Assembly: GCF_000758705.1 (NCBI RefSeq)
Contig: NZ_CP009287.1
Span: 2,170,001 to 2,234,000, forward strand
DNA: 64,000 nt
Origin: Paenibacillus graminis
GTDB taxonomy: Bacteria; Bacillota; Bacilli; Paenibacillales; Paenibacillaceae
Reading direction: 5' to 3'
Shown here: positions 1 to 55,832 of the stretch, one piece after another
Layout of the letters: each line of letters opens with the position of its first letter
Numbering within the stretch: position 1 is the first letter of the stretch
Notes under the pieces: model-generated
The model's input: the letters and a program-made list of their open reading frames with translations, nothing else
What the model was told of the DNA's origin: nothing
Database searches by the model: none
Position numbers and translations under genes: made by a program

Positions 1-3000
1 CGGTTCATCCGATGGACACAGCGAAAGCAGTATAATGACTTCGCTCCTGTCTTTGAATACGGTTGGAGATATCGTGGAAATGCTGGCCGTCCGCGGAGAG
101 GGGAGCAGCGGTACCCGGACAGCTGCCGGTGACGAGAACACTATTGCAGTGGAGATTCCTGAAAATGAGCCTGAATTTCTTGAAATATTACATTCCCAAT
201 ATTTGTTTCTGATCACCTATTTGTCGGTAGCCAACCTGACCATAACTTCAGGGGTGCGCCTGCGGGGGAGACTGGATGCCGACAGCCTGCGGAAGTCGTG
301 GAGCGAGTTGATCCTCCGTCATCCTGTACTACGAGCCGTATTCATTACGGAGCCGGCGAACGCGAGCTTGAAGGGGTATCGTCTCCAATTGCTGAAGACT
401 GCAGTGCCGCCTGAAATTCCTGTCCTGGATATCAGACATCTGGATGAACAAGCAAGGCGCCGGTGGATCTCGGAAAGGTTCGAAGCCTCGCTGAATGAGA
501 AATTTGATATCACCCGCTGGCCGCTGCATTCTTTGTCAGTTATCCAAACGGCCGACCTGGAATACGAGCTGATTCTGGATATCAGCCATATGATCTCGGA
601 CGGTCTGGGCAACCAGCAGATTCTGAGAGAAATTATGGAGATTTACGGGGCGGAATCGCACAACAAAGCAGCCAAGCTGAGGCCCGCGCTGCCAGCTGTG
701 GAATATAACCGCATTGTATCTGAAATCAATGCCTGGAATGCTCCGGGAGAGATGGAGGCGCTGGACCGGTACTTGCAGCAGCAGGGCCGTGGAGCCTACT
801 TCTTTAACCCCTTCGGGGCAAGCCGCAAGGCAAATGCGGCAGGTGCTGCCGGAGCTGTGATTCATTCCCGCAAATACTGGATCGGCGAGGACACAACAGC
901 ACGGCTGATTGCCTCTACCAAGACCTGGCGGACCTCACTGTTCATTCTTCTGGTCAGCGCATATCTGAAGACGATCAAGCAGCAGGGGGAAGAACGGAAT
1001 CGGATTATTCTGAATCTTCCGACAAGCGGCAGGCTGTATCCCCACACGGATGCTTCAGAAGTGCTAAGCGCCTTTGCCCAAAATCTTGCACTCAGCTTCA
1101 CTTGCGAAGATGTAAATGAAGAATGGGAATCACTAATTAACAGAACACATGAAGAATTCACCAACAAATTATCCTCAGGCATAGACAGGGCGCAGACCTA
1201 CAGAGCTGCGCAGTATGCTAAAGACACGATCCATCTGCAGAACGGCGTTATGCCGGAAGCGGTGGCCTCCATGATCCGCTCCACATTGAAATCTAACCTA
1301 TATCTTTCATTCGTAGGCAATACATCCATACACACGCAATACGGGGATTACGAAGTTTATGATTATGAGGCTTTTACAGGAACCAACCCGGGAACGATTG
1401 ACTGCCTGGCTGAATTGTTTCAGGGTCGGCTGATGATTACGGCCAACTATGACAGCACCTTTTTTGATGATGATTATATCGGGGAGCATATGGACAGGTT
1501 CATGGACAACCTCAGTCAGCTTGCCGGTATGGAACCTGTGGTCAAGCCGGTGCTTGCCGCAGCAGACAGTGAAGAGCCGAATAACGCGGAAATAAGAGAA
1601 CGGCTGTACGGAATGGCCCAGGATATTTGCGGAACGGCGTTTGATGAGAATGCTCTGTTCAAGGATATGGAGGCAGAACTCGGGTTGGATTCCCTGCAGC
1701 GCATCCGGCTGATTACCAGGCTGGGCAAAGTATTCGGGCATGCCGACAAGGCGGCATTGCTGGAATGCAGGACCTTTAATGAAATTATTACCCATATTAC
1801 ACATGTAAATAATGCGGTTGAACTTGCAGGCCGGGACTCTGCTGCTGCAGAAATTCCCTATTTGCATATTTCCAGGCAGTGCAAGGCAACTCCCGATGCG
1901 GTTGCGATATTGGACGGCACCGGGGAGGTTACCTACCGCGAGCTGGACGAGCAGTCTAACCGGCTTGCGCATTATTTAATTTCACAAGGGGTGCGTTCCC
2001 AGAGCCTGGTCGGCATTCTAACGCTCCCGGGCCGTCTTATGCTGACGGGGATTTTGGGGATTTTGAAAGCGGGAGCGGCTTATGTGCCGCTTGATCCGAT
2101 GTATCCGGCTGACCGGATCGAATATATTGCGGAGCATGCACAGCTCAGTGTCCTGCTCACAGAGCAGTCCCTGCAAAAGCAGGCAGATCCTATAGTACGG
2201 GAGAGCCCTTCCATCCGGAAAGTGGTCTATCTTGATGAAGGATATGAAGCCCACGGCGATTTTGAACAGACGGGAACGGAAGTATGGCAGAAATGCTCCG
2301 CCAGTGATCTGCGGGTAGACACCGCCCCCCATGATCTGATGGTTGTTCTGTATACATCGGGATCAACCGGGAAGCCCAAGGGGGTCATGCTGAATCACCG
2401 CGGCTATATGAACCGGCTGGAATGGCACCAGCAGACCTTCAATCTTCAGCTTGGCGAACGTGTAGCCCAGAAGACCTCCTGCTGCTTCGATATTTCCGTG
2501 TGGGAGCTGCTGTGGCCGCTGATGTACGGCGGAACGGTATGCCCCGTAAGACAGGAAATTGTCAAGAATCCCTGGAGCCTGGCCCGGTGGATGACGGACA
2601 CCCGAATCAACGTCATGCATTTCGTGCCTTCCCTGTTCGGTGAATTTGTAAATTCATTGGAGGATGAGAACTATACATTTCCTGCGCTTCGCTGGCTGAT
2701 TTTCAGTGGAGAGGGGCTGCCGCTGAGCCCGGTGCAGCAATGGATGGACCGCTATGGAAATAAGACGAAGCTGGCTAATCTGTATGGTCCTACCGAGGCT
2801 TCTATCGATGTTACTTACCACATCATTTCACAGCGGCCGGGTTCAGCAGGGGAGATGAGCATTCCCATCGGCAAGCCGATTCCCGGCGTGTATATCAAAA
2901 ATCTGGATGAGCACATGCATGAAGTGCCCGTGGGTGAACTTGGCGAACTGTGGATCGGCGGCATTCAACTGGCCAAAGGCTATCTGTACAACCCGGAAAA

Positions 3001-5599
3001 AACCCGCGAAGCCTTCCATCCCAACCCGTTTCCGGAGATTCCGGGAGAATTTATCTACCGCACAGGTGATTTGACAGTTAGCAAGGCGGACGGAAGCTAT
3101 GAGTACCATGGACGCATCGACAACCAGGTGAAGCTCCGCGGTTTCCGGGTCGAACTGGGCGAAATTGAAGCTGTGCTGGGCAGTCATGACCAGGTTGCTG
3201 AGGTGGCGGTGATTGTCACCCAGCCCGCGCCCGGACAACAGCTGCTGCTTGCCTGCCTGGCAGGCAAACAGGTGCCCGACCAGGAGATTAAAGACTTCGC
3301 CGTCCGCAAGCTTCCGTACTATATGATTCCCCACCGGCTGGAATGGCTGCCCAGACTGCCCAAGAATCCAAACGGCAAGCTGGACCGCAAGGCGCTGAGT
3401 GTTATGTTCAGCGGGACGGGGCAAGCGCCCCAAGCGTCCCAAGCATCTCAGGCGCCTCAAGCCTCGAAGCTCCTGGTTCCTCCGGCGGAGAATGAGCCGC
3501 TGGGCCTAGGGGATACGCTCCCGCTTGCTCCGGCGCAGAGCTGGCTGATGAATTATTTCGAAGATCCTTACTGCTGGGCGGGCTATACCCGCTTCCTATA
3601 CAAGCAGCCGCTGGATTTACAGCAATTCAAGCAGGCTGCCATGATGCTGAACCGGCGCCATGACGCGCTGAGAAGCATTCTGGAGCGGAAGGATAACGGC
3701 TTTGAACAAAGGTTCCTGCAAGGAGAGCTGGGGACCAATGTGGATTTCTATGATGGAAGCCATATGGAGGAAGCCGAAAGAAATGAAGAAATTGGGGTGA
3801 TTCTGACGGAAGCGGTTCATGGGTTCCGGGTGGACCAATGGCCGTTATGGCGGATTATTGTCATTCAGGTATCGGAAGCGGTCTATGATATTGCAGCAGT
3901 CGGGCATCACCTGATTTCAGATGTGGTCACGAATCAGCTGCTGCTGCAGGAAATCTGGCAGATTTACGCTTCACTGAGTCCGGGAGCCCGGCACATAAGC
4001 TTGCCCGATGCCAAGCCGTTTGCCGATTTTGTCCGCGCGGTCCAGGAGAAGAAAAGAATCCACGGGAAAGAGTACGCAGGCTACTGGTCCACACATTTCC
4101 CTCCTGAATCTGTGTGCAGGCTGCCGGCAGATTTCATCAAGGGACCCAATGACGAGCAGTCTGCTGCGACCCAGCGCTTCACTTTTGACCGGGAGCAGAC
4201 CTCACTGCTTCTGACCAGAGCCAAGAAGCATTTCAACAGCAATGTATATCCGATTTTGCTGGCCCCTCTATATAAGGAGATGAGCGTTTTTTTCGGACAG
4301 CCGGAGGTGGTTGTGAGCCATCGGGTGCACGGAAGAGAATTGGGCAGCGGACAGAATTTCATGCAAACACCGGGCAACTTTGCTGTGAATTTTCCGCTGG
4401 GCATAAATGTGGAGAAGGACAGCCAATGGAGCACTCTGATCTCCAGCATCCGTAAAGGTCTCGAAAATGTGCCGCTTGGCGGAGTGAGCTATGATCTGGT
4501 ATCCGAGAGTCTGCCGCGCTACATGTACCCGGATGTGAAGCTGACCCCAATCCGGGCGAACTATCTCGGCAACCGGGATGCCCCCCGCCTGCCGGGCCTG
4601 GAATTTTCCAGAGAAGGCATGGACCGCAGATTTTCACTGCCGGGTCAAAAACGGATATCGGTCATTGAATTCTTTTTCTCCATTGAAGAAGGGAAGCTGA
4701 CCGTTGAGATCGAGTACTCCGCCAATCTTTATGCTGCTGCTACGATCCAGGGGCTGGCTGAGCAGTATATGGAGCAAGCACTTGAGCTTCTGGCGTCCAT
4801 TCAGGATACCCCGGCACTGCCCCCGGCTCCCAGAGCAGGACTGCTGGCACATAAAGTAGCGGTCATAACGGGCGGCAGCAGAGGCATCGGACGGAGCATA
4901 GCCTTGTCCATGGCCGGTGAAGGGGCCGACATTGTGCTGGTATCCAGATCCGGACAGCAGCTTCAGGAGACTGCAGATGAAATCCGCCGGCTCGGGGTGA
5001 AGGTTATGTCCGTATCCGCCGATGTGAGTGACGCTCCAAGCGTCAATAAGGCGGTTGAACAGATTATTGAACGCTTCGGCCAGATCGATATTCTTGTCAA
5101 CGGTGCCGGAATTACCGGCATGGCGGCGATGGCCGACATGAGTCCGGGGGTGTGGGAGTCGATCATTCAGGTGAATCTGCTTGGAACCTATCATTTCTGC
5201 TACGCGGTGATCCCTTATCTGATCAGGCAAAATCAGGGCAAAATCATCAACATCGGCTCGGATTCCTCATTTATCGGCTATCCGATGATGAGCGCCTATG
5301 CGGCATCCAAGCACGGGGTGCTTGGACTGACCCGTGCACTGTCAGAAGAGCTGAAGAACAGCAACATTCAGGTGAATGCTGTGTGCCCGGCGCTCGTGGA
5401 CACCGGCATGGCACCGGCGGCTTTCAAGGGGCGGGCGATTCCTCCGTCCGGGGTTGCGGACTCGGTGGTGTTCCTGGCCTCTCCGCGTGCGGATTATATT
5501 ACCGGCGAGGCTGTACAGATCAACGGCAAACAAGATATGCACTGGTTCGGGGCACAGCAGATGCAGCTGCTTCAGGCCGTTCAGCGCAGACAGCCGTAA
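1..5599 (+). CDS. NRPS, 5'-truncated: (ACP end)-C-PCP-A-C-SDR
   Basis: Part of a non-ribosomal peptide synthetase that condenses carrier-bound acyl or aminoacyl groups. The frame is open from base 2 to the first ATG at 35, and the residues there resemble the last helix of a carrier domain, so the true start lies outside the window. Numbering from ATG 35: condensation domain about 50-500 with SHMISDG, keeping the second catalytic His (about 184); carrier domain with GLDSL, Ser about 552; adenylation domain about 607-1130 with YTSGSTGKPKG (about 771) and NGKLDRK near the end; second condensation domain about 1160-1590 with HHLISDV (about 1290); FabG-like short-chain reductase about 1605-1854 with GGSRGIG and YAASK. 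The carrier precedes the A domain and none follows it. No thioesterase is present. The A-domain pocket reads like a serine code. It is the first gene of a tight operon with the exporter, PKS and nitroreductase. The family assignment is secure; the product is unknown. Confidence 0.93.
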   Translation, partial: GSSDGHSESSIMTSLLSLNTVGDIVEMLAVRGEGSSGTRTAAGDENTIAVEIPENEPEFLEILHSQYLFLITYLSVANLTITSGVRLRGRLDADSLRKSWSELILRHPVLRAVFITEPANASLKGYRLQLLKTAVPPEIPVLDIRHLDEQARRRWISERFEASLNEKFDITRWPLHSLSVIQTADLEYELILDISHMISDGLGNQQILREIMEIYGAESHNKAAKLRPALPAVEYNRIVSEINAWNAPGEMEALDRYLQQQGRGAYFFNPFGASRKANAAGAAGAVIHSRKYWIGEDTTARLIASTKTWRTSLFILLVSAYLKTIKQQGEERNRIILNLPTSGRLYPHTDASEVLSAFAQNLALSFTCEDVNEEWESLINRTHEEFTNKLSSGIDRAQTYRAAQYAKDTIHLQNGVMPEAVASMIRSTLKSNLYLSFVGNTSIHTQYGDYEVYDYEAFTGTNPGTIDCLAELFQGRLMITANYDSTFFDDDYIGEHMDRFMDNLSQLAGMEPVVKPVLAAADSEEPNNAEIRERLYGMAQDICGTAFDENALFKDMEAELGLDSLQRIRLITRLGKVFGHADKAALLECRTFNEIITHITHVNNAVELAGRDSAAAEIPYLHISRQCKATPDAVAILDGTGEVTYRELDEQSNRLAHYLISQGVRSQSLVGILTLPGRLMLTGILGILKAGAAYVPLDPMYPADRIEYIAEHAQLSVLLTEQSLQKQADPIVRESPSIRKVVYLDEGYEAHGDFEQTGTEVWQKCSASDLRVDTAPHDLMVVLYTSGSTGKPKGVMLNHRGYMNRLEWHQQTFNLQLGERVAQKTSCCFDISVWELLWPLMYGGTVCPVRQEIVKNPWSLARWMTDTRINVMHFVPSLFGEFVNSLEDENYTFPALRWLIFSGEGLPLSPVQQWMDRYGNKTKLANLYGPTEASIDVTYHIISQRPGSAGEMSIPIGKPIPGVYIKNLDEHMHEVPVGELGELWIGGIQLAKGYLYNPEKTREAFHPNPFPEIPGEFIYRTGDLTVSKADGSYEYHGRIDNQVKLRGFRVELGEIEAVLGSHDQVAEVAVIVTQPAPGQQLLLACLAGKQVPDQEIKDFAVRKLPYYMIPHRLEWLPRLPKNPNGKLDRKALSVMFSGTGQAPQASQASQAPQASKLLVPPAENEPLGLGDTLPLAPAQSWLMNYFEDPYCWAGYTRFLYKQPLDLQQFKQAAMMLNRRHDALRSILERKDNGFEQRFLQGELGTNVDFYDGSHMEEAERNEEIGVILTEAVHGFRVDQWPLWRIIVIQVSEAVYDIAAVGHHLISDVVTNQLLLQEIWQIYASLSPGARHISLPDAKPFADFVRAVQEKKRIHGKEYAGYWSTHFPPESVCRLPADFIKGPNDEQSAATQRFTFDREQTSLLLTRAKKHFNSNVYPILLAPLYKEMSVFFGQPEVVVSHRVHGRELGSGQNFMQTPGNFAVNFPLGINVEKDSQWSTLISSIRKGLENVPLGGVSYDLVSESLPRYMYPDVKLTPIRANYLGNRDAPRLPGLEFSREGMDRRFSLPGQKRISVIEFFFSIEEGKLTVEIEYSANLYAAATIQGLAEQYMEQALELLASIQDTPALPPAPRAGLLAHKVAVITGGSRGIGRSIALSMAGEGADIVLVSRSGQQLQETADEIRRLGVKVMSVSADVSDAPSVNKAVEQIIERFGQIDILVNGAGITGMAAMADMSPGVWESIIQVNLLGTYHFCYAVIPYLIRQNQGKIINIGSDSSFIGYPMMSAYAASKHGVLGLTRALSEELKNSNIQVNAVCPALVDTGMAPAAFKGRAIPPSGVADSVVFLASPRADYITGEAVQINGKQDMHWFGAQQMQLLQAVQRRQP

Positions 5600-17404: not shown

Positions 17405-17470
17405 CTGTTGTAGATAAGGTGTGAAGGGGATGAGAGTCTTTTTGTTTGATTTGTCTAAAGGACGAATGTG

Positions 17471-17920
17471 GACTGGAAACAACGGCAGAAATGCCGTTGT
17501 TAAGCGCCCCAGTGGCGGAGTGCCCGGAAACAACGGCAGAAATGCCGTTGTTAAGCGCCCCAGTGGCGGAGTGCCCGGAAACAACGGCAGAAATGCCGTT
17601 GTTAAGCGCCCCAGTGGCGGTGTGCCCGGAAACAACGGCAGAAATGCCGTTGTTGAAGCGCCCCAGTGGCGGAGTGCCCGGAAACAACGGCAGAAATGCC
17701 GTTGTTGAGAAGCTGAAGGCTGGTGTGCCTGGAAACAACGGCAGAAATGCCGTTGTTGAAGCGCCAAAGGGTGGTTTGCCTGGAAACAACGGCAGAAATG
17801 CTGTTGTTGAAGCGCCAAAGGGTGGTTTGCCTGGAAACAACGGCAGAAATGCTGTTGTTGAAGCGCCACAGGTCAGTTTGCCTGGAAGCAACGCAGAAAT
17901 GCCGTTGCTGATGAGCTGAA
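17471..17920. repeat. Nine tandem 51-bp units, each with a 10-bp hairpin capped by GAAA
   Basis: Core hairpins start at 17478, 17529, 17580, 17631, 17683, 17734, 17785, 17836 and 17887. The period is 51 bp, except one step of 52. Each core is arm AACAACGGCA, loop GAAA, arm TGCCGTTGTT. Units 7 and 8 carry C to T in the 3' arm, which keeps a G-U pair. Unit 9 changes both arms together (AGCAAC against GTTGCT), an A-U to G-C compensatory change, and has lost one G. The spacers split into a group with CGCCCCAGTGGCG, itself able to pair, and a later group with CGCCAAAGGGTGG. Because 51 is a multiple of three, several frames stay open on both strands, but no coding signal accompanies them. Confidence 0.93.
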
Positions 17921-18344
17921 AGCTGGTTGCTTCAAGGGAACAATCCAGCCGGCGGACTCGGAAATTCAATTTCTGCTTATAGTTGCTTCCTCTAGGGTGA
18001 GGTGTGGCGGCAGGGATGTCTATTGCACTTTTTACGCAGCTTACTCTTAAATAAGCTTAAAAACTAAATCTATTGTATTCTATGCAGCAGATTATGCATG
18101 AAATACAATTGATTGCGCTTACCGGAGTTAGTGGTGAGGCCTTCTGATCTTATAGTATTCCATGACATCCTCCTGCTCATTTAACAGATTAGGAAGCGCA
18201 TTAGCGTAATGTGGAAAACCGTCTCCGGGGACCGCAATATGGCTAACGGCTATTGCTATTACAGTGATGTGCAGCCAAGCCCGGTTCCAAGATCAATGGA
18301 TTGATCCTGAAAAGCCGGAGACCTTCAACAGGTGAAATAAGACA
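17921..18344. other. Intergenic stretch, no gene recognised
   Basis: This stretch lies between the hairpin array and the GH39 remnant. It is AT-rich around 18040-18110 and contains the imperfect inverted repeat listed separately. A short open stretch ends in QWIDPEKPETFNR just before 18334, but it has no credible start or family match that I recognise. It may be debris of a sugar-hydrolase gene, given the remnant next to it. Confidence 0.5.
18072..18109. repeat. Imperfect inverted repeat
   Basis: Arms ATTGTATT and AATACAAT enclose an inner pair ATGCA/TGCAT. The spacing and AT-richness suggest an operator or a weak hairpin. It stands alone, with no intact gene immediately on either side. Confidence 0.4.
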
Positions 18345-39595: not shown

Positions 39596-39654
39596 AATAT
39601 AAATAATGCTTTGCTGATTTAAATTCGAACTTAAAGCTTAACCTTAAAGATAAA

Positions 39655-39789
39655 GTAACGGAGGGAAGGTTTGGAACTGTAGGAGCGAATGCGTCCGCCT
39701 TTGTCTCCGGATGTTATCCGCAAAGCGGTACAAATCAGAAACATCTGGAGACAACAGCGGCCGGAAGTCCAAACACTTTCCGTAGTCAC
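39655..39789. repeat. Structured intergenic element, copy 1
   Basis: About 135 bases. The outer stem pairs GTAACGGAGGG...GTTTGGA with TCCAAAC...TCCG...GTCAC. The central 15-bp stem pairs TTGTCTCCGGATGTT with AACATCTGGAGACAA and encloses a CCGC-AAA-GCGG hairpin. A second copy lies at 48405-48543. It fills most of the gap between yrrN and yrrO. No open frame or T-run is associated with it. Confidence 0.9.
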
Positions 39790-39855
39790 GTTCATATCTG
39801 AAAGGAAAGTTTTTGATTGGTTTTATACAGCAAAGAAATGGAGGGGAGAACAGGA

Positions 39856-48355: not shown

Positions 48356-48404
48356 CTTCTTACTCTCCTATAAAAGAACTTGAGAAGACAATATGAAAGG
48401 TGAA

Positions 48405-48543
48405 GTAACGGAGGGGGAGTTTGGAACTGGAGGCGCGATAGCGTCCGGCTTTGTATTCAGATGTTATCCGCTAAGCGAAGCGGTATAATCAAAAACATCT
48501 GAATACAACAGCGGCCCGAAGTCCAAACATTCCCCGCAGTTAC
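48405..48543. repeat. Structured intergenic element, copy 2
   Basis: About 139 bases, the counterpart of 39655-39789. The outer stem is GTAACGGAGGGGGAGTTTGGA against TCCAAAC...CCCCGCAGTTAC. The central stem TTGTATTCAGATGTT / AACATCTGAATACAA is perfect over 15 bp and encloses a CCGCT...AGCGG hairpin. It sits 42 bases beyond the stop of the GH130_1 gene. Confidence 0.9.
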
Positions 48544-48584
48544 AGCCAACACCCAAATGTAAAGCTCTCAAGTTCAATCCACAA

Positions 48585-55598: not shown

Positions 55599-55832
55599 AC
55601 AATATGAGATGGACCAGAGAACTTGAAAGCTATTCATCCCATATGGCTGCTTTCAGCCGGATTAATGGTACTTTTTCCAACATAGGATACTCCATTAGTC
55701 GAATGCGTCCGAGAAGTGATCTTTTTTTCACTAACAATGATTGCCCTCTTCATCGATTTTTAAGTTCTATTTATATAGTACAGGCTCTTTTCCTTTCCGC
55801 ATAACTTTCTGCATCATAGACATTTTCGCCGC

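Follow-up and report, generated by a model that had tools for sequence, protein, structure and literature searches.

The window, the whole 64,000-nucleotide stretch of Paenibacillus graminis DNA that was analysed (NZ_CP009287.1, positions 2,170,001 to 2,234,000), holds two copies of a structured intergenic module, the first of them in the gap between two genes that we named by eye as U32-peptidase-like. The copies, their arms and the longer elements around them are as follows.

39655..39789, plus strand: structured module, copy 1 (covariance-model match, E 2.6e-37), between the two U32-peptidase-like genes and sense to both
39663..39675, plus strand: copy 1, outer module helix, 5' arm GGGAAGGTTTGGA (predicted fold; helix 2 of the copy alignment)
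39768..39781, plus strand: copy 1, outer module helix, 3' arm TCCAAACACTTTCC (predicted fold; helix 2 of the copy alignment)
39685..39692, plus strand: copy 1, small junction hairpin GC-GAAT-GC (helix 4 of the copy alignment)
39701..39715, plus strand: copy 1, central stem, 5' arm (from the sequence; helix 5 of the copy alignment)
39740..39754, plus strand: copy 1, central stem, 3' arm (from the sequence; helix 5 of the copy alignment)
39718..39728, plus strand: copy 1, apical hairpin CCGC-AAA-GCGG (from the sequence; helix 6 of the copy alignment)
39609..39835, plus strand: copy 1 with decayed ends and flanking palindrome CTTTGCTG...CAGCAAAG (from the sequence and from orthologous filled and empty sites)
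48405..48543, plus strand: structured module, copy 2 (covariance-model match, E 1.1e-34)
48451..48465, plus strand: copy 2, central stem, 5' arm (from the sequence)
48494..48508, plus strand: copy 2, central stem, 3' arm (from the sequence)
48368..48580, plus strand: copy 2 with decayed type-A terminal repeats CTATAAAAGAACTTGAGA ... TCTCAAGTTCAAT (read from the sequence)

Both copies lie where the sequence-only reading had placed them and align end to end, and the compensatory changes it described in the central stem proved exact. The arms are TTGTCTCCGGATGTT / AACATCTGGAGACAA in copy 1 and TTGTATTCAGATGTT / AACATCTGAATACAA in copy 2, so that one C-G pair becomes A-U, another C-G becomes U-A and a G.U becomes A-U, and the CCGC/GCGG hairpin is present in both. 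On the strand shown, both copies exceed dinucleotide shuffles in fold stability by a wide margin (z -5.5 for copy 1 and -8.8 for copy 2; 0 of 200 shuffles folded as well). Fold energies of copies 1 and 2 were -56.2 and -64.2 kcal/mol on the strand shown and -51.1 and -57.8 for the reverse complements, a stable fold for either strand and the more stable one for the strand shown. Two parts of the earlier description had to be widened. The pair of copies is real, but it belongs to a high-copy family with 73 matches in its own genome; the coordinates are correct for the inner module, but in many copies this module is embedded in an element that measures about 210-260 bp and carries terminal inverted repeats, its ends being decayed in both window copies. 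Since two copies alone are little proof, the case for covariation is made with the 73 genome matches and a 32-copy alignment.

No terminator-like site (a G+C-rich hairpin plus a T run) was found in either window region, in agreement with the initial view that the element is not a terminator. Neither module holds a promoter-like or terminator-like site, and the only same-strand promoter-like site lies about 140 bases before copy 2, in a count at chance level. A covariance model and an Rfam search had been proposed as checks: the model, R1, was built, and no Rfam family rose above chance. Over the whole window, a tRNA alone passes the gathering threshold of Rfam 15. Lenient scans of both window modules gave nothing beyond E 0.8-1.2, far under gathering scores, and those of six other loci gave no match on the module. 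A known Rfam family was ruled out, a sub-threshold Ref64 match in locus L292 lying outside the module.

Copy number and covariation of the fold

R1 was built from 32 copies. Searched against the P. graminis genome it found 73 matches at E<1e-3, which is the set used here, and 86 when E was allowed to reach 1, the weaker ones including some opposite-strand echoes; plain DNA searches of this genome gave at least 44 matches each. The count of copies in this and other Paenibacillus genomes that the sequence-only reading called for was thus obtained, with all 37 of 37 same-genus genomes positive (own genome included, 5 to at least 54 matches per genome) among the 60 relatives searched, together with 6 of 23 genomes from other families of the order. 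A broader model, R2, was run on 250 genomes drawn from the class and matched 23; 22 of these belong to the same family (own genome included), members of that family among the 227 non-matching genomes not being counted, and one matching genome lies outside the order (E 7e-6). In one distant species (locus L315, genome G006) the module is arrayed in tandem at 1010-3720 and 3644-4188, with both orientations present; next comes an array of a 56-nt unit, similar by eye to the module 3' end.

The predicted architecture, about 135 nt in all, combines a long helix, a junction bearing a small hairpin, and a central stem capped by an apical hairpin; 20 copies from one distant species, folded separately, gave the same architecture. 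In alignment A2 (32 copies aligned by sequence alone, 2 of 34 copies with an insert being left out), 95.8% of cells pair, and pairing falls to 40-50% when the partner is slid by one column. Double-sided compensation is seen in 20 of the 43 pairs of A2 against 6.8 expected from shuffles (0 of 500 shuffles as high), in 38 of 43 pairs of A3 (102 distinct rows fitted to the model) and in 41 of 43 pairs of A6 (66 rows of very different subtypes, also fitted to the model), kinship being ignored in all three counts. The covariation score of the divergent 66-row set was 0.583, compared with 0.187 for shuffles. As a structure-free check, 80 distinct sequences shorter than 150 nt, out of 104 rows, were realigned with MAFFT and scored by an APC-corrected G-test. 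Eleven of the top 12 column pairs fell on two antidiagonals of predicted helices; only 20 of the top 45 pairs were more than 85% canonical, the figure for random pairs being 17%. In the diverse set the conserved bases cluster at the junction, approximately GnAGnAGCG..GCG.TCGC.C.T.TTG on the 5' side and AACA.GCGnnCGGA on the 3' side. In a subgroup of loci (L011, L023, L026 and L154) the central-stem arm AAATTCTTACGAC lies opposite GTCACCGGATTTC with weaker pairing, possibly a decaying lineage.

The site of copy 1 was compared across relatives using 80 loci around the upstream U32 gene. By nhmmer, the intergenic region is filled in 15; P. lemnae has a further filled site of a different, divergent subtype, and the other 64 loci, with gaps of 12-97 bases, gave no nhmmer match. 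By eye, the core is gone from between two GGAGGGG repeats in one of these 64, and in another only the ends remain. In the filled orthologs the pairing persists even as entire helices are replaced (for example TTTGTCTGCGG by TTTAGGTTTGG), and the outermost palindrome changes as well, from CTTTGCTG/CAGCAAAG to CTCAGC/GCTGAG. A 5-bp AATG-type duplication at copy 1 is only suggestive. Because orthologous copies swap whole helices in this way, gene conversion among copies may inflate the covariation; our controls were the shuffles, the slide and the G-test, and relatedness and gene conversion lie outside their reach. Copies at L155-L165, L027 and L059 carry about 40 additional nt (GAAAGCTTTCC..GGAAAGCT..GCATA), which separate the junction hairpin from the central stem; some copy 1 orthologs have this addition and others lack it.

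Terminal ends and insertion sites

Many copies lie within MITE-like elements that we call type A, with ends TATAAGTTGAACTT...; extending the alignment gave a longer element with ends CTATATAAGTTGAACTT. Within the P. graminis genome, both type-A ends were found in 29 of 73 copies and at least one in 42 of 73, with up to 4 mismatches allowed in the 17 positions compared. The window copies miss the 4-mismatch cut, with 6 and 7 mismatches at the ends of copy 1 and 6 and 5 at those of copy 2. Type-A copies are accordingly short, non-coding and bounded by terminal inverted repeats, as expected of MITEs; the two window copies themselves lack recognisable terminal repeats by that cut. We searched for empty sites with the flanks of 14 copies against 100 genomes of the genus, comparing 20 regions at 8 sites. 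Filled sites and their empty relatives gave a clean TA-type junction with TA duplication at 5 of the 8:

3501785: empty CTAG, filled C-TA-TATAAGATGAACTT...-TA-G
6569199: empty CTAA
4907731: empty TTAG
3134135: empty GTAG; left TA now TG
2049127: empty CTAA; first element base changed

No clean junction was obtained at the remaining 3 sites (copies 3986792, 6122942 and 6150708). The empty sites also rule out that the end CTATATAAG is wholly element, since its C-TA is target plus duplication. Insertion sequences of the IS630 family, 1164 bp long and present in a related genome (G028) as three identical copies, have ends, TATAAGTTGAACTA and TATAGTTTGAACTA, that are nearly the type-A ends, so that these ends are common to an autonomous element. 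The three insertion sequences are flanked by C-TA and TA-G, as type-A copies are, and hold helix-turn-helix (HTH) and DDE_3 (PF13358) reading frames. The TA junctions and the ends of these insertion sequences together indicate that the type-A copies are IS630-type MITEs. In P. graminis itself, a search for an autonomous element with type-A ends found no long pair in 20 regions around mostly unpaired ends, and the single PF13358 match of the genome is without close type-A ends. Origin of these MITEs from a DUF772/DDE insertion sequence was ruled out, their ends matching the IS630-family element instead.

The module also occurs between GGCTCAA ends with 8-bp duplications (type C), between AGAGCGTGTTCAAAA ends, and inside DUF772/DDE insertion sequences. 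Among the 20 copies of genome G014, a GGCTCAA-like sequence was seen by eye at one or both ends of 13; a scripted search gave candidate end pairs in 7, with exact 8-bp duplications in 2 (GAAATAAA, TTAAAAAA), 7 of 8 bases duplicated in a third and no duplication in 4. A copy from another family (L311) has the exact 8-bp duplication GGAATAAA. Type-A ends also turn up among these 20 copies of G014: both in one copy, and the right one at least in a second. An earlier assignment of type-C ends as CTAGTGCTTGA was dropped once longer G014 flanks gave GGCTCAA with 8-bp duplications. Ends of the AGAGCGTGTTCAAAA kind were found in 3 of 4 copies read in genome G052. In the P. graminis genome, copies are also located between the start of a transposase frame with DUF772 and DDE domains and the end of its insertion sequence, which we take to be IS1182-like; an insertion-sequence end like this one also comes after copies in two genomes of another family, where no intact transposase frame was seen. 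The scripted terminal-repeat search recovered no ends for several distant copies.

When a type-A and a type-C copy were aligned, the flanks were no more alike than shuffles, and the module aligned through most of its length. Its presence with different ends shows that the common part is the module and not the transposon ends, and that the module as such is not an IS630-type MITE. The sequence-only reading had named as one refuting outcome that the element would match an Rfam or IS-derived family already known. The answer is divided: no Rfam family matches above chance, and the ends of the type-A copies mark these as IS630-like MITEs, but the folded module was not seen in that insertion sequence and lies also between unrelated ends. 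Elements of the IS200/IS605 or REP/RAYT kind lack terminal inverted repeats and duplications; membership was rejected, since terminal repeats and TA or 8-bp duplications are present here.

Orientation to genes and possible roles

With gene neighbours taken from an ORF heuristic and not from annotation, the upstream gene is on the same strand in 64 of the 73 copies of the P. graminis genome and the downstream gene in 51 of the 73, which are dispersed. Between codirectional genes 48 copies are sense and 6 antisense, two of the latter being linked to insertion sequences; 15 copies lie between convergent genes, 3 between divergent ones, and one is without an assigned class. As a control we used another high-copy repeat of the same genome, type B, with at least 50 match rows; from 30 loci read and 40 candidates scored, some sharing a type-A end, it gave 14 sense to 9 antisense in codirectional pairs (Fisher p = 0.0096 against 48:6). 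One type-B copy lies in the window at 55630-55778 on the minus strand, with an interior like GGAAAAAGGATCACTAA..., unrelated to the module, and a type-A-like end. Among the top 20 listed copies, the codirectional counts were 11 sense to 2 antisense in G028 and 7 to 1 in G014, where 5 of the 20 lie between divergent genes, which counts against a pure 3' UTR role, and 2 are without an assigned class. By script, a terminator-like signal intervenes between the module and a same-strand upstream gene within 500 bases in 8 of 61 copies. Sense placement and few intervening terminators lead us to expect sense transcription of most copies, provided that transcription runs on from the upstream gene. At locus L003 (around 1506, minus strand) a copy lies between argF-like and argG-like genes, named by eye, and is sense to both.

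The reading that we favour, at a probability of roughly 60%, is that of a structured ~135-nt RNA module that is transposon-borne non-coding cargo in Paenibacillales, cotranscribed with its host gene and acting in cis through its fold. The module would spread as cargo of small DNA transposons and, after insertion, be cotranscribed as intercistronic or 3' UTR RNA; its fold would then act on the host transcript, and we infer that it most likely affects how the upstream message is processed or decays, or else read-through by RNA polymerase. Sense insertions would be retained, and carriers of the module would prosper. There is good support for selection acting on the fold of the sense RNA. The sequence-only reading had concluded that covariation implies selection on, or mobility through, the folded form, and this alternative stands: covariation is strong over many copies, the element is mobile, and Rfam holds no match above chance. 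Of the two branches we favour selection on the sense-strand RNA, because the insertions look like ordinary DDE-transposon insertions. We tentatively propose, in addition, that no fewer than four unrelated kinds of transposable element (IS630-type MITEs, GGCTCAA MITEs with 8-bp duplications, AGAGCGTGTTCAAAA MITEs and DUF772/DDE insertion sequences) each picked up a functional RNA cassette on their own, because its fold, in sense within host messages, would make an insertion tolerable or useful. Such a 'passport' RNA of mobile DNA would let the polymerase pass or protect the upstream message.

We consider it unlikely that the module is an ordinary MITE interior, namely a long imperfect palindrome without RNA function that is kept paired by the transposase and by DNA-level processes such as hairpin-templated correction and gene conversion between copies. 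The type-A copies are MITEs by their ends, TA duplication and IS630 partner, and the wholesale helix swaps among orthologs are what such processes could produce, but the core is branched instead of a simple palindrome, and the junction bases are conserved even in copies with unrelated ends. At paired positions on the strand shown, moreover, G.U far exceeds A.C: 93:19 in A2, 267:54 in the 102 model-fitted rows of A3, 25:5 in the G014 copies and 95:29 in the diverse set, although the structure was predicted on the same strand and the count leans somewhat that way. As an A.C on this strand is a G.U on the opposite one, the fold appears to be kept on the strand shown, a bias that a strand-neutral DNA process would not yield, and the sense bias is unlike that of the type-B repeat of the same genome.

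A family of trans-acting small RNAs with their own promoter, amplified by transposition, is very improbable: it would accommodate the tandem arrays of the distant species and the conserved junction bases, but the window modules are without a promoter-like or terminator-like site and placement follows the upstream gene. With replication direction reckoned from a record starting at dnaA (named by eye), orientation agrees with it in 58 of 73 copies; of the few copies that sit between codirectional genes on the lagging strand, 4 of 5 follow transcription and not replication. Least probable is that the module serves as folded DNA in recombination or transposition, like attC or IS200/IS605 ends, which would suit the strong fold, the agreement with replication and the strand asymmetry of pairs, but not the terminal repeats with TA or 8-bp duplications as from DDE transposons, insertion edges at the terminal ends and not at the module edges, the pairing of the module with several different ends, or those few lagging-strand cases.

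Relation to known repeats

MITEs of the IS630/Tc1-mariner type resemble the elements described here in their TA target duplication and in ends that are nearly those of an insertion sequence with a PF13358 transposase, but they fit the type-A copies alone; the GGCTCAA, AGAGCGTGTTCAAAA and insertion-sequence-borne copies do not fit. The RUP element of Streptococcus pneumoniae is, in the excerpted text of PMC3049150, a 107-bp repeat with ends like those of IS630-Spn1, found to 60.9% on the leading strand, mirroring gene strand bias. To the extent of that text, it is alike in being a short, non-coding, folded repeat with many copies and IS630-like terminal repeats; it differs in that our module agrees with replication in 58 of 73 copies and is sense by 48:6 in codirectional pairs, and in that the folded core of the Paenibacillus module also lies between unrelated terminal repeats. 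Repeats bcr1-bcr18 of the Bacillus cereus group are likewise interspersed; the excerpted part of PMC3446304 calls bcr1-3 MITE-like and often in UTRs or operons, and claims conserved structure for bcr10 and bcr18. Going by that description, they are set apart by the single fold of our module that spans several transposon kinds and families of Paenibacillales. BOX, ERIC, Correia and BIME are dispersed folded repeats that, according to the same excerpts of PMC3049150, can change how stable host transcripts are or how they are processed, in some cases depending on orientation; the likeness to our module is by this partial description, and sequence was compared through Rfam alone, with none above chance. 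In the open-licence literature, as far as its accessible text extends, no paper was found on such a Paenibacillus repeat, MITE or structured RNA.

Structured interspersed repeats are already known, and their folds are easily taken for by-products of inverted repeats. Here one branched fold and its conserved junction are preserved while helices and transposon ends change completely, mostly in sense to the host gene, which opens the question whether functional RNA is carried by bacterial MITEs to a direct test. The module is also an RNA family absent from Rfam; many genomes offer tens of natural copies of it, and filled sites with matching empty ones are at hand for experiments. Elsewhere in the window, 17424-17922 holds a tandem repeat of about 51 nt, with seven overlapping copies at a spacing of 51-52 nt.
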